DNA from: Candidatus Pseudelusimicrobium marinum
GTDB lineage: Bacteria > Elusimicrobiota > Elusimicrobia > Elusimicrobiales > Elusimicrobiaceae
Direction: 5' to 3'
Length of the DNA: 64,000 bases
NCBI GenBank assembly: GCA_018656005.1
Contig: JABHZW010000037.1
Span: 1-64,000 of the forward strand
The notes under the pieces were generated by a model. It worked only from the letters and a program-made list of their open reading frames with translations, was not told the origin of the DNA and made no database searches. Below are positions 2,817-64,000 of the stretch, piece after piece (positions within the stretch are counted from its first letter, which is position 1; every line of letters begins with the position of its first letter). The position numbers and the translations under genes are program-made.

Positions 2817-2828
2817 TTCTTTTTTATC

Positions 2829-2889
2829 CTTGTTTCTGTGACTACATAACACATATTTTGTTAATGCTTTATTGCCACCGTATGTTAAA
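2829..2889 (-). repeat. Leader element copy E1 (rpsT 5' UTR)
   Basis: On the minus strand it reads from AACATACGGTGGCAATAAAG through GTGTTATGTAGTCAC to AGAAACAAGGA. The last bases are the rpsT Shine-Dalgarno site. It aligns without gaps over its first 33 bases with the copies at 12744, 25859, 58556 and 63053. Confidence 0.85.
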
Positions 2890-12743: not shown

Positions 12744-12807
12744 GCATAACATACGGTGACAACAAAGTAGAAACAAAATCAGTGTTATGTAGAAAGCTTA
12801 AACGAGG
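12744..12807 (+). repeat. Leader element copy E4 (operon junction)
   Basis: Fills most of the 88-base gap between two hydrogenase genes. It starts AACATACGGTGACAACAAAG, passes through GTGTTATGTAGAAAGCTTAA and ends with CGAGGA, the ribosome site of the next gene. It links the two variants of the family: its 5' half resembles the rpsT/rpmE copies and its 3' half matches those at 20736 and 63053. CATAACA (12745-12751) can pair with TGTTATG (12783-12789). Confidence 0.85.
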
Positions 12808-12816
12808 ATAAAAGAT

Positions 12817-14235
12817 ATGGACTTGATATTTATAAACTTTATACTACTTCCCTTAATAGCTGCGGTGGTAACGGCTTTTCTAAACAATAAGTCAAAACTA
12901 GCAAACGGCATCTGTGTTGCGGTTTTTGGTTATCACTTGTTATACATCTTGCACAACATCTTAGTTGCTAAAACAGCTTTTTATACAGGAATGAATATGT
13001 TAAGTGGAATAATGCTTATCGCAATAGCATTAGTAGCTTTAACAGTAGCGGTGTTTTCTTACTTTGCAGAAAGCACTAACAGAAAGGGTATCTATTACGC
13101 TTTAATGTTAATACTTGTAGCTGGTATGAACGGCATCGTTTCAACTGGCGACTTTTTTAGTATATACATCTTCTTAGAAGTTGTAGCAGTAGCATCTTTT
13201 GCATTGATAGCTTTCTATAATAACCCCCTCAGCACAGAAGGTGCAATAAAATACTTCTACTTATCAGCATTTGCTTCTATACTTATAATATTGTCAGTAT
13301 CCTTATTATTTGTATTTACTGGTGATACTAGCTTTACAGCACTTCAAAATGCAATGACATCAAATGCGACTAATCCAACAGCATTAAACATAATACTTGG
13401 TTTAATGGTTGTAGGGTTTATGGTAAAAACTGGTTTAGTACCATTTCATACATGGACACCAGATGCTTACCAAGGCGCATCAACAAGTGTATCTGCGATA
13501 CTTGCTGGTATAGTAACAAAAGTTGCTGGTGCTTATATGTTGATAAGAATAGCAATAAGCCTAGGCATAATTAATGATGGAATAAAAACAAACTCTGTTG
13601 GTTTTGCAATAATGGTTTTTGGTCTTATAACGATATTAGTTGGTGCAATAGCAGCAATGAAACAAAACAACTTTAAAAGAATGTTAGCATTTAGTTCTGT
13701 TAGCCAAATGGGATATATCGCATTAGCAGCAGGTCTTGCAACACCATTAGCTTTGGCTGGTGCAGTATTTCACTTATTTAATCATGCAACATTTAAAACT
13801 CCATTATTTTTCAATGCAAGAGCGTTGGAACAACAAGCAGGTAGTTGCGATATAGATAAACTTAAAGGGCTTGGCACAAAAATGCCTTACACCGCATGGT
13901 CTTCTATAGTAGCAATGTTATCTACTGCTGGTTTACCACCATTGTCTGGTTTCTGGAGTAAAGTTTTGATAATAGCAGCATTGTGGGAAGCTGGTTTCCA
14001 TACTTTTGCAATAGTTGCTTTATTTGCAAGTTTATTAACACTTGCATACTTTATTAACTTTCAACGAACAGTATTTTTTGGCAAAGTTTCACCTGAGCTT
14101 AAAAATGTTAAGGAAGTTGGTTTTAAATATTTATTACCAGTTTTCGTGTTTGTTATATTAATAGTCGGTATTGGGTTAGCATTTACAACTTGTTTTGAAA
14201 CTTTCATTGAACCCTTTATAAGGTTTTTAACTTAA
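12817..14235 (+). CDS. NuoN/MrpD-like antiporter subunit, hydrogenase subunit
   Basis: 472 aa, about 14 helices. Canonical features are present: TM5 Glu in IYIFLEVVAVASF, GFMVKTGLVPFHTWTPDAYQ with the TM7 Lys, and KQNNFKRMLAFSSVSQMGYI. It is the third antiporter-like subunit of the complex, so the enzyme has as many proton or sodium channel modules as complex I. The ribosome site (GAGGA) is supplied by the repeated element in front of it. Confidence 0.9.
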   Translation: MDLIFINFILLPLIAAVVTAFLNNKSKLANGICVAVFGYHLLYILHNILVAKTAFYTGMNMLSGIMLIAIALVALTVAVFSYFAESTNRKGIYYALMLILVAGMNGIVSTGDFFSIYIFLEVVAVASFALIAFYNNPLSTEGAIKYFYLSAFASILIILSVSLLFVFTGDTSFTALQNAMTSNATNPTALNIILGLMVVGFMVKTGLVPFHTWTPDAYQGASTSVSAILAGIVTKVAGAYMLIRIAISLGIINDGIKTNSVGFAIMVFGLITILVGAIAAMKQNNFKRMLAFSSVSQMGYIALAAGLATPLALAGAVFHLFNHATFKTPLFFNARALEQQAGSCDIDKLKGLGTKMPYTAWSSIVAMLSTAGLPPLSGFWSKVLIIAALWEAGFHTFAIVALFASLLTLAYFINFQRTVFFGKVSPELKNVKEVGFKYLLPVFVFVILIVGIGLAFTTCFETFIEPFIRFLT

Positions 14236-20735: not shown

Positions 20736-20800
20736 GTGCCAAAGGCACCCCTTTCTTTTTTAAGCTTTCTACATAACACCCTTTTCGCTTTAGCTTCTTA
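20736..20800 (-). repeat. Leader element copy E6 with 3' hairpin
   Basis: Minus strand: AAGAAGCTAAAGC, then GTGTTATGTAGAAAGCTTAA, AAAAGAAAGGG and hairpin GTGCC-TTT-GGCAC (20748-20736). It lies between the promoter and start codon of the coiled-coil gene. Read through in one frame it encodes CYVESLKKKGV, nearly the peptide of the copy inside the NuoE-NuoF fusion. Confidence 0.85.
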
Positions 20801-20817
20801 ACATCTTTTACTAAATT

Positions 20818-23293: not shown

Positions 23294-23367
23294 AGTGGGA
23301 AGCCCACTCCTTTTTTTGTTTTCGTGACCACATTACACTAGTTTTGCTAATGCCTAATAGCCACCTT
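23294..23367 (-). repeat. Leader element copy E3 with 3' hairpin (murA 5' UTR)
   Basis: Minus strand: AAGGTGGCTATTAGGC, hairpin-forming CATTAG-CAAAA-CTAGTG, TAATGTGGTCACG, AAGGAG, then a perfect hairpin AGTGGG-CTT-CCCACT directly joined to the ATG. The stem overlaps the last two bases of the Shine-Dalgarno site, so folding could either block it or bring it next to the start codon. Confidence 0.85.
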
Positions 23368-23371
23368 ATTT

Positions 23372-25847: not shown

Positions 25848-25858
25848 TGTTTTTGTCC

Positions 25859-25918
25859 TTGTTTCTGTGACTACATTACACTAGTTTTGCTAGTGCTTTA
25901 TTGCCACCGTATGTTAAG
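25859..25918 (-). repeat. Leader element copy E2 (rpmE 5' UTR)
   Basis: Minus strand: ACATACGGTGGCAATAAAGC, hairpin CACTAG-CAAAA-CTAGTG, TAATGTAGTCACAG, AAACAAGGA. Nearly the same as the rpsT copy, so two ribosomal protein genes share the leader. Confidence 0.85.
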
Positions 25919-34323: not shown

Positions 34324-34499
34324 TTATTAGGCAATTGAACTTTAAAACTTTGCCAAAATTTTCAATTGCCTAATAAAGGTGGGAAACTAAGAATTCTTTC
34401 TTAGGGAAATAAATATTTTCAATTGCCTAGCAAATGTGTGGGGCAAAGCATTTTTTATATGGGAGATAAGCATTCTTTATAATAGGATGCTATTTTTTA
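34324..34499 (+). ncRNA. Candidate small RNA (~170 nt), unrecognised family
   Basis: It has its own promoter and terminator and no ORF. A perfect 16-bp stem forms between 34324-34339 and 34361-34376. A second copy of the 3' arm (the 14 bases at 34359-34372) recurs at 34416-34429, so the 5' arm could pair with either. A perfect 7-bp hairpin lies at 34387-34404, flanked on both sides by GGGAAA. Terminator: AGCATTC/GGATGCT (34469-34475 with 34485-34491), then ATTTTTT. It lacks T-box motifs, and leuS has a separate promoter, so it is not simply a leader. 6S RNA is possible by size, but I cannot show the fold. Confidence 0.55.
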
Positions 34500-57193: not shown

Positions 57194-58547
57194 TTTTATT
57201 TTTCTCTTCTGCGAAATATTTTTCTAAGAAGCTGGTATCAATATCGCCTTTTATAAAATCCTTATGATTTATAATTTTGGAATGGAAATCTATAGTAGTT
57301 TTTACACCTTCTATATAAAATTCGCTTAACGCTCTTTTACTTCTTGCAAGTGCTTTTTCTCTTGTTGGCGCCCATACAATAAGCTTTGCTATCATACTAT
57401 CGTAATAACTTGGTATGGTATAGCCCGTATATACATGAGAGTCCACCCGAACACCTAAACCACCCGGCATAAACCAGCTGTCTATTGTGCCTGGACAAGG
57501 TGCAAAATTATGTTGCATATCCTCGGCATTTATCCTATGTTCTATTGCATGTCCATGGATTTCTAAGGCTCTTTCTTTAGTAAATTCTAACTTTTCGCCC
57601 TCGGCTATGTGTATTTGCATTCTTACAAGATCTAAACCGCTAACCATTTCTGTGACAGGATGTTCCACCTGTAAACGAGTGTTAACTTCCATAAAATAAA
57701 ATTCTTTATTTTGAGCCATCAAAAATTCCACAGTACCAACACCATGATAACCACTAGCTTTTACAAGTTTTATTGCACTATTTGCTAACTTTTTACGAAC
57801 TGCTGGAGTTACAAATGGACTTGGACTTTCTTCCACTAATTTTTGATGTCTTCTTTGCATACTACAATCTCTTTCTGCAAATGCAATTACATTGCCGTGT
57901 GTATCTGCTGCTACTTGAATTTCTATATGTCTTGGTTTTAAAATTAATTTTTCAAAATATACGCCATCGTCGCCGAATGCAGCTAAACTTTCGTTTTTTG
58001 CCATATTTAAACAATGTTCAAATTCTTTTTCGTTCATCGCAGCTCGCATACCTTTACCACCACCACCGGCAGATGCTTTAATCATAATAGGATATCCTAT
58101 TTTTTTTGCTACTTGTTTATGGTTTTTTGTTACAAGCCCGTCTGAACCCGGTGTAATTGCTACACCTGCTTTAACAGCTATTTCTCTTGCGGTAGATTTG
58201 TATCCTAATTCTTTTATAGCTTTGCCTGATGGACCAATAAATATTGCACCTGCTTTTGTTACAGCGTCTGAAAAATCTGGATTTTCGGCTAAGAAACCAT
58301 AACCAGGATGTACGGCATCAGCATTACTTATCTTTAATGCTGTTATTATTGCTTCTATGTTTAGGTAGCTATCTTTAGAAGTTGCTGGACCTATACAATA
58401 ACTTTCATCAGCTTCTTTTACATGCATAGAAGTTCTGTCTGCTTCGGAATATACACAAACAGCTTTTATATTTAATTCCCGTAAAGTACGGATAATCCTT
58501 AAGGCGATTTCACCACGGTTTGCTATTAAAACTTTTTTAAATTTCAT
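57168..58547 (-). CDS. accC: Biotin carboxylase subunit of acetyl-CoA carboxylase
   Basis: 459 aa ATP-grasp enzyme that carboxylates biotin on BCCP. KKVLIANRGEIALRIIRTLRE at the N terminus, glycine-rich SAGGGGKGMR, FEKLILKPRHIEIQV, catalytic EVNTRLQVEHPVTEM and GHAIEHRINAED. The C-terminal Lys/Asn tail is where it overlaps rfaE2. Element E7 supplies its ribosome site. The carboxyltransferase genes accA/accD are not in the window. Confidence 0.94.
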   Translation of the reverse strand: MKFKKVLIANRGEIALRIIRTLRELNIKAVCVYSEADRTSMHVKEADESYCIGPATSKDSYLNIEAIITALKISNADAVHPGYGFLAENPDFSDAVTKAGAIFIGPSGKAIKELGYKSTAREIAVKAGVAITPGSDGLVTKNHKQVAKKIGYPIMIKASAGGGGKGMRAAMNEKEFEHCLNMAKNESLAAFGDDGVYFEKLILKPRHIEIQVAADTHGNVIAFAERDCSMQRRHQKLVEESPSPFVTPAVRKKLANSAIKLVKASGYHGVGTVEFLMAQNKEFYFMEVNTRLQVEHPVTEMVSGLDLVRMQIHIAEGEKLEFTKERALEIHGHAIEHRINAEDMQHNFAPCPGTIDSWFMPGGLGVRVDSHVYTGYTIPSYYDSMIAKLIVWAPTREKALARSKRALSEFYIEGVKTTIDFHSKIINHKDFIKGDIDTSFLEKYFAEEKNKNEKIKNKK

Positions 58548-58555
58548 TTTTTTCC

Positions 58556-58612
58556 TTGTTTTTCGTGACTACATAGCACTGGTTTTGCTAATATTTAATG
58601 AGAACCTTAACT
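58556..58612 (-). repeat. Leader element copy E7 (accB-accC junction)
   Basis: Minus strand: AAGGTTCTCATTAAATATTAGC, AAAACCAGTGCTATGTAGTC, ACGAAAAACAAGGA. It begins at the accB stop codon and ends with the accC Shine-Dalgarno site, so it fills the junction. Confidence 0.75.
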
Positions 58613-62304: not shown

Positions 62305-62565
62305 ATGAAAACAAATATACTTCTTTTATTAATCAATGAAAGAAAACAACAAGCACCAACTGTACAAAAAGTTTTAACAGAATGGGGTTGTTTAATCAAA
62401 ACAAGATTAGGTTTGCATTCTGGGATTTTAGATGATTGCACAAATACGGGGTTAATTTTTTTAGAACTTGTAGGCGAAAAAGATAAGCATGACGAAATGG
62501 CAAGAAAATTAAATCTTCTAGAAGGCGTTAGCGCTAAGCTTGTAGAACTAGAACTTAAAGACTAA
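62305..62565 (+). CDS. Iron-only hydrogenase system regulator (TM1266-like)
   Basis: 86 aa ACT/NikR-C-like small protein. MKTNILLLLINERKQQAPTV, LTEWGCLIKTRLGLHSGILDD and LNLLEGVSAKLVEL fit the family found beside [FeFe]-hydrogenase operons (TIGR03959-like). It may bind a small ligand and affect hydrogenase expression or maturation; no DNA-binding domain is present. Strong GGGAGG site before the ATG. Upstream of the HydC-HydB fusion by 88 bases. Confidence 0.75.
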   Translation: MKTNILLLLINERKQQAPTVQKVLTEWGCLIKTRLGLHSGILDDCTNTGLIFLELVGEKDKHDEMARKLNLLEGVSAKLVELELKD

Positions 62566-62653
62566 AAATGCTTTTTTAATAAAACATTTTTTAATAAAAC
62601 CTTGATTTTAAGGTTAGTATTTTATATTTCTAAATAAAAGGAGAGGGAAGTGT

Positions 62654-64000
62654 ATGGAAACTAAATCTCAATTACTGGCAATTCTTCATACGATACAACA
62701 AAAATACGGATATATTTCAAATGAAAATATGCAAAAAATTGCAAACCAGCTAGACATCCATCCAGTGGAAGTTTATAGTGTGGTTTCTTTTTACGAATTT
62801 TTCTCTACAAAAAAAATGGGCAAAACCGTAATAAGAGTGAGTGGTTGTATGTCTAATGAAATTGCAGGTAATGCAAAAGTTATTAAAGCGTTTGAAAAAA
62901 AATTAAAAATAAAATGCGGACAAACAACTAAAGACGGAAAATTTACCCTTCTCAAAGCAAGTTGCTTAGGTATGTGCGACAAACCAGTAGCAATAATGTT
63001 AAATAATAATCTTATTGGCAATGTTACAGAAAAAGATGTAAATAAAATTTTAAAGGTGGATACAAAGCTAAAACAAAAATCGTGTTATGTAGAAAGCTTA
63101 AACAAAAAAGGGGTGAGCTTCTCACAAACTGGTAAGGTTATTTTTAGCGATTACAAACCTCTTTCAGGTTTAAAAAAAGCAATTAAACTTGGTGGCGAAA
63201 AAACTATTAAAGAAGTTCGCTCTTCAAACATAAAAGGTCGTGGTGGTGCAGGGTTTACTACCGGCGATAAATGGCAATTTGCAAGCGAAGCTTATGGCGA
63301 GAACAAATATATAATTTGTAATGCAGACGAAGGCGAACCAGGTACTTTTAAAGACAGAATTTTAATAACAAATTATGCTCATCTAATAATAGAAGGTATG
63401 ACAATTGCAGGACATGCAATTGGTGCAGAAAAAGGATATGTATATTTAAGGTATAGATATATAAATCTAAAACCTTACTTAGAAAAAGCTATCGCAAATT
63501 TTAAAAAACAAAAAGCACTTGGTAAAAATATTTTAGGTTCTGGTTTTAATTTTGATATTGAAATTAAAATAGGTGCAGGTGCATATATCTGTGGCGAAGA
63601 AACCGCATTGATAGAATCTATGGAAGGGCAAAGAGGCGAACCAAGAAACAAACCACCTTTCCCCGCAAATAGCGGATATTACGGTCAACCAACGGTAATA
63701 AATAATGTTGAAACTTTATGTGCTGTTTCACATATCCTTGCGAAAGGTGCAAAGTGGTTTAAAAAGTTCGGTACAGAAAAAAGTAGTGGCACAAAAGTTT
63801 TAAGTATATCTGGCGATTGTAAAAAACCAGGTGTCTACGAAGTTGAGTTTGGCACAACTATAAACCAAATTTTAAAACTTGCTAAAGCAACTAACACAAA
63901 AGCTGTACAGGTTGGTGGAGCAAGTGGAGTTTGTATTAAAAAAGGCGAATTCAATCGAAAAATTGCTTTTGAAGATGTTCCTACCGGCGGGGCAATAACA
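62654..64000 (+). CDS. NuoE-NuoF (HydC-HydB) fusion protein, 5' part
   Basis: The frame is open from ATG 62654 to the window end (449 codons). Residues 1-133 are a NuoE-like thioredoxin-fold domain; residues from about 160 are NuoF-like, with the FMN site GRGGAGFTTGDKW (195-207), NADEGEPGTFKDR and CGEETALIESMEGQRGEPR. In the NuoE part only Cys65, Cys104 and Cys108 match a [2Fe-2S] site: the usual C-x4-C pair is reduced to one Cys. The linker (about 135-156) is encoded by repeat element E5. The upstream TM1266-like gene suggests an NAD(H)-linked, possibly electron-bifurcating [FeFe] hydrogenase. GGAGAGGGAAG site precedes the ATG. Confidence 0.88.
   Translation, partial: METKSQLLAILHTIQQKYGYISNENMQKIANQLDIHPVEVYSVVSFYEFFSTKKMGKTVIRVSGCMSNEIAGNAKVIKAFEKKLKIKCGQTTKDGKFTLLKASCLGMCDKPVAIMLNNNLIGNVTEKDVNKILKVDTKLKQKSCYVESLNKKGVSFSQTGKVIFSDYKPLSGLKKAIKLGGEKTIKEVRSSNIKGRGGAGFTTGDKWQFASEAYGENKYIICNADEGEPGTFKDRILITNYAHLIIEGMTIAGHAIGAEKGYVYLRYRYINLKPYLEKAIANFKKQKALGKNILGSGFNFDIEIKIGAGAYICGEETALIESMEGQRGEPRNKPPFPANSGYYGQPTVINNVETLCAVSHILAKGAKWFKKFGTEKSSGTKVLSISGDCKKPGVYEVEFGTTINQILKLAKATNTKAVQVGGASGVCIKKGEFNRKIAFEDVPTGGAIT
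63053..63125 (+). repeat. Leader element copy E5, in frame inside the NuoE-NuoF fusion
   Basis: AAGGTGGATACAAAGC, AAAACAAAAATC, GTGTTATGTAGAAAGCTTAA (63082-63101), ACAAAAAAGGG and hairpin GTGAG-CTT-CTCAC (63113-63125). It encodes VDTKLKQKSCYVESLNKKGV plus SFS, joining the two domains. The 20-base core is identical to the copies at 12782 and 20779 (reverse). Confidence 0.88.

Follow-up and report, generated by a model that had tools for sequence, protein, structure and literature searches.

A copy of a dispersed repeat encodes the linker of a NuoE-NuoF fusion in an [FeFe]-hydrogenase operon of Candidatus Pseudelusimicrobium marinum

The fused hydC-hydB gene and its linker

The window analysed here covers the initial 64 kb of a contig of 79 kb from the draft genome of Candidatus Pseudelusimicrobium marinum (1.2 Mb, 62 contigs, 93% complete, 33% GC), the sole representative of its genus met in our searches. 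Close to the end of the window, a frame opening at 62654 runs without a stop until L031:4319, beyond the window end. The features of this region are the following.

62305..62565, + strand: gene for a TM1266-like hydrogenase-system regulator, upstream of the fusion (Pfam PF21699, E = 2.1e-5, 24.8 bits, just under the curated cut-off of 27)
62654..64000, continuing to about contig position 64318 (L031:4319), + strand: fused hydC-hydB gene (NuoE-NuoF), 554 codons (open frame, Pfam)
62660..63055, + strand: NuoE-like [2Fe-2S] thioredoxin domain, residues 3-134 (Pfam PF01257, E = 2.2e-39)
63051..63125 (75 bp), + strand: E5, the in-frame repeat copy encoding the NuoE-NuoF linker, residues 133-158 (leave-one-out profile, covariance model, translation)
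63113..63125, + strand: 3' hairpin of E5, GTGAG-CTT-CTCAC, intact although coding (sequence; the stem covaries across copies)
63215..63730, + strand: NuoF FMN-binding domain, residues 188-359 (Pfam PF01512, E = 1.8e-44)

Both domains are carried intact on one chain, which also includes the NuoF iron-sulfur domain (residues 460-541): PF01257, PF01512 and PF10589 all score above the Pfam cut-off. The next gene, overlapping the fusion by 8 nt, encodes the [FeFe]-hydrogenase large subunit (hydA, Pfam), and the order hydC-hydB-hydA is the same as in homologues. The mass of the fused product, estimated from its length, is about 61 kDa, below the ~65 kDa proposed in the first-pass annotation. An AlphaFold2 model of the chain matches structures of HoxF and HydB. 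It leaves residues 134-157, almost the whole of the part encoded by the repeat, disordered at pLDDT values below 50, and those of NuoF are mostly above 90; because the NuoE half is only moderately modelled, no claim is made on domain docking.

The first-pass annotation had recognized a repeat copy exactly between the NuoE and NuoF domains, and this was borne out by the leave-one-out profile, Pfam and translation. The residues encoded by E5 are LKVDTKLKQKSCYVESLNKKGVSFSQ and include, as had been noted, CYVESLNKKG. The 3' end had been placed correctly; at the 5' end the element is two bases longer and starts at 63051 rather than 63053. A nucleotide profile made from 15 copies other than E5 found it in the window at E = 3.1e-15, level with clear intergenic copies, and gave zero matches in the reversed window used as a decoy. 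This value is the fair figure for E5, since the covariance model, which ranks it third best in the genome (85.8 bits), included E5 itself. In a blastn search of E5 against the rest of the genome, the best other copy had E = 9.7e-15. That linker DNA resembles the repeat by chance, as the AT-rich composition of the genome might favour, is refuted by the leave-one-out profile and its empty decoy, and 60 related genomes reach 24.5 bits at best; we regard such a coincidence as vanishingly improbable.

No in-frame ATG lies between the two domains. The only two in-frame GTG codons are both without a well-placed ribosome-binding site, and hydB is without a plausible start of its own. One of them, GTG 63113, lies at the 3' hairpin inside E5, behind AAAAAAGGG, and could in principle be a separate hydB start; alternatively, an assembly or base error in a draft of 62 contigs could have simulated the fusion. 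We consider it very unlikely that no single protein exists for either reason. The G-run stands directly at GTG 63113, too near for a usual ribosome-binding site, and the frame is stop-free even if translation begins there. A draft-assembly error is unlikely because E5 has the length of the family without indels, its longest exact match to any other copy has 22 nt, and the genes stand in the same order as in homologues. We infer that one working protein is probably produced from the fused gene.

A repeat family at gene junctions

With the covariance model, 74 copies were detected in the genome at E ≤ 0.1, about 70 of them at E < 1e-3. The consensus is roughly AAGGTGGCAATAAAGCATTAACAAAACTAGTGTTATGTAG, followed by an A-rich stretch, GGAG and the short hairpin GTGNNCTTNNCAC. 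The stem of the 3' hairpin varies strongly with pairing kept: both partners of two of the five base pairs have changed in 7 of 16 copies, and none of the shuffles reached the covariation score observed. The 5' inner stem gave no covariation above shuffles. A short form lacking the hairpin is also present, often ahead of genes with ribosomal-protein-like starts (the start sequence being the sole basis for these names). Other copies in the window include the following.

2822..2883, - strand: short-form copy, before a small rpsT-like gene
12751..12829, + strand: short-form copy between two co-directional genes
20736..20810, - strand: intergenic copy, open in E5's frame (CYVESLKKKG)
23295..23369, - strand: the most intact of the window's copies, and the best-folding one of full length (z -4.05)
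25856..25912, - strand: short-form copy, before a small rpmE-like gene
58541..58610, - strand: copy exactly between accB-like and accC-like genes

The copies near 12751 and 58541 lie, as first proposed, between separate operon genes with co-directional neighbours. The 20736 copy was likewise confirmed to be open in E5's frame while lying between called genes. Elsewhere, about ten copies, mostly of the short form, occupy successive junctions of an apparent ribosomal-protein operon (L201, G000:C58:900-12400). Tandem units occur at C25:8092 and 8175 (L180, G000:C25:8092-8210) and extra free-standing hairpins at L202:329-421, which suggest that the repeat is modular.

To place the copies relative to genes, we wrote a simple gene caller based on codon usage, which is not a published program. 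The 74 copies fall into co-directional gaps in the direction of transcription (49) or against it (7), convergent gaps (13), divergent gaps (2) and genes (3). The usual site of the family is the junction between co-directional genes, where the sense orientation predominates (49 versus 7, binomial p = 4e-9). The stop codon of the upstream gene lies inside or at the element in 16/63 cases, and the downstream start within 18 nt of its end in 37/52, immediately behind it in 9. In these nine copies (L181:7755-7829, L199, L193 and others) the 3' hairpin abuts the start codon and GGAG precedes the hairpin, which thus stands between the ribosome-binding site and the start. Terminator-like hairpins precede 11 copies, compared to 1.75% of random positions, part of this excess arising because copies lie behind genes.

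These features might indicate that the family functions chiefly as an intercistronic RNA element, a module for ribosome binding and spacing that owes its spread and retention to selection, and that E5 retains this role in the mRNA while being translated. The sense orientation, the nine copies abutting a start codon, the compensated changes in the 3' stem, the short forms at ribosomal-protein junctions and the good preservation of E5 despite its coding role all fit such a function. However, copies also occur within genes, in convergent gaps and after terminators, the downstream genes have no single function in common, and the fold of E5 RNA on its own is no better than that of shuffled sequences (z -0.83). 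On balance this explanation seems doubtful to us. A loss by E5 of its inner stem along with its stops was considered and dropped, since an alternative pairing retains most pairs.

Two further copies are read within genes. The copy in glmU (L189, G000:C36:4665-4739, minus strand; 32.9 bits) is in frame and has an intact hairpin. The GlmU stretch concerned is 9 residues longer than in 29/29 aligned relatives, with some 10-15 host residues apparently replaced; it does not look like a clean insertion. The third coding copy (L168, G000:C8:24517-24590, minus strand) lies in a predicted membrane protein of 108 residues and uses a frame different from that of E5. The coding copies thus show no preference for a single frame. 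The frame used by E5 carries stops in 61/70 copies; with 9/70 open, E5 among them, a stop-free frame on its own says little about selection.

Judging by the genomes searched, the family appears specific to this lineage. No convincing copy was found in 60 relatives, where even the best matches do not rise above chance; among 295 genomes from the phylum there was one borderline match, in the distant member G087 (31.6 bits, near chance level for that number of genomes). The element was absent from viral contigs, phages and plasmids, and no Rfam family matched at the element within the window. Of the three families of mobilising enzymes searched for in the genome itself, Y1/RAYT (PF01797), RVT_1 and DDE_Tnp_1, none gave a match. 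The family may be, or may formerly have been, mobile.

A proposed origin for the fusion

The nearest homologues by identity are loci from Omnitrophota (L062, 57/64%) and Ignavibacteria (L063, 43/55%). Both have separate hydC and hydB without a repeat, and neither genome has a convincing copy (best E 0.2 in the L062 genome). At the L062 hydC-hydB junction we noticed a weak model match (15.3 bits, E 0.05-0.12), which is taken as chance because the core is largely missing, the hairpin pairs are broken and the genome is without a convincing copy. Both domains could be compared at 80-odd loci, and fusion was seen at just two of them, the distant L061 and L064, with unrelated linkers. These two fusions are independent of the present one, not the same event.

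E5 fits closely between the two coding regions: its start coincides with the natural HydC end (KIL plus a few residues), and the conserved HydB start (VIFS) follows within about four codons of its end. The reading that we find probable is that a lineage-specific repeat of ~75 bp at the hydC-hydB junction made one gene of two, its translation serving as a flexible tether. A copy would have come to lie at this junction of the [FeFe]-hydrogenase operon, the usual type of site for the family, and would have covered both gene ends, removing the hydC stop codon and the hydB start. Because E5 is without a stop in that frame, hydC and hydB would have become one gene, and the encoded stretch would now tether the NuoE-like to the NuoF-like domain in a HoxF-like diaphorase subunit. 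That the element caused the fusion is suggested by the junction habit of the family, the unfused repeat-free nearest homologues, the boundary match and the second in-frame copy in glmU.

The first-pass annotation had advanced a similar history, in which the repeat once separated hydC from hydB and fused them by loss of the stop codon. Much of it stands: E5 is a true copy, it is the linker, the family favours junctions, and the nearest homologues (L062, L063) are separate and repeat-free. The part that does not follow is the sequence of events, the repeat first and the stop loss later. Since 16 copies overlap the upstream stop and 8 others besides E5 are open, stop loss after insertion and a one-step insertion over the stop would look alike. 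The comparison of homologous junctions had been expected to reveal either separate genes with the element between them or fusions without it. The nearest genes are separate with no repeat between them, and the two distant fusions are free of the repeat. The same fusion with an unrelated linker, named at the outset as evidence against this history, was encountered only in the distant, independent L061 and L064.

Conversely, hydC and hydB could already have been one gene when the repeat, whose 75 bp are a multiple of three and make 25 codons, entered a tolerant linker, in the manner of Rickettsia palindromic elements in single genes. Repeat-free NuoE-NuoF fusions do exist (L061, L064, HoxF), and the glmU copy indicates that insertion within genes occurs in this genome. 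Yet the near homologues are all unfused, and E5 fills the whole stretch from the natural HydC end to the natural HydB start with no older linker left. We hold such a late insertion to be unlikely, and less likely than a fusion caused by the repeat. An extension of the repeat-caused fusion can be offered tentatively: the repeat may be a portable gene-junction module, bringing its own stop codons, folded spacer and ribosome-binding site, which becomes a linker when its stops are lost and which created the hydrogenase fusion in one or two steps.

Comparison with known repeats and fusions

Rickettsia palindromic elements (RPE) are stem-loops of 105-146 bp (Ogata et al. 2000, reviewed in PMC2229807). 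Like the present repeat, they are short and dispersed, and occur in intergenic regions as well as within conserved genes, where they are translated in frame. The present repeat is similarly multicopy in one genome, with the frame kept inside hydCB and glmU and also in the small membrane protein. The two are unrelated in sequence as far as the consensus structure tells and, unlike RPE, the present repeat lies mostly between genes, makes use of three different frames and in one copy joins two genes. REP elements of the GTAG/CGTC families are single palindromes of 20-40 bp with a GTAG or CGTC tag beside the stem; they have a similar gap distribution and their termini supply stop codons (PMC3733652). 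Both kinds of element lie behind genes in co-directional (here 56) and convergent (here 13; divergent 2) gaps, and at times within genes, where REPs encode 20-30 residues. In the present repeat, of about 75 nt, GTAG occurs in the core and never beside the 3' palindrome. In contrast to REPs, no RAYT (Y1) transposase was found (no PF01797 match in the 93% complete genome) and no head-to-head dimers were seen. Enterobacterial RU-1 (ERIC), RU-2 and RU-3 also form intragenic in-frame fusions (PMC2759123), in one case (ECA3499) at the cost of the normal stop codon. These repeats extend or begin single proteins, whereas the present one joins two conserved subunits.

NuoE-NuoF fusion is itself already known from HoxF (PMC3189943). 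In HoxF and formate dehydrogenase beta subunits (5xf9, 7e5z), a NuoE-like domain precedes a NuoF-like domain as here, but these are independent fusions with unrelated linkers, and the partner enzyme here is an [FeFe] hydrogenase (hydA). The trimeric [FeFe] hydrogenase HydABC has the same gene order, hydC-hydB-hydA, and domain content; in contrast, HydC and HydB are here one polypeptide and HydB is without the N-terminal ferredoxin-like domain of many HydB proteins. Such fusions and in-frame small repeats (RPE, REP, RU-1) are both known, but a search of the open-licence literature gave no report of a small repeat that joins two genes into one.

The origins of gene fusions and linkers are usually inferred long after their traces have vanished. 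Here the linker can still be recognised as a repeat, of which the genome contains about 70 relatives; its raw material can thus be seen, and sister genomes offer a test of the steps. E5 is likely, from its sequence, to be stray DNA turned into protein, which suggests that a repeat at an operon junction can help genes to fuse and need not merely disturb them.

Three side observations were made. The hydC-hydB-hydA set (62305-64000 and L031) is nearest to the Omnitrophota locus (56%), with only about 45% to its own family, a pattern that hints at a possible horizontal transfer. A second NuoF-like gene (G000:C30:37004-38164), 46% identical and part of a frame of 680 codons, is similar to the longer type that is common in the family. 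Finally, the window carries at 34355-34468 a tandem pair of a 57-bp unit, 74% identical.
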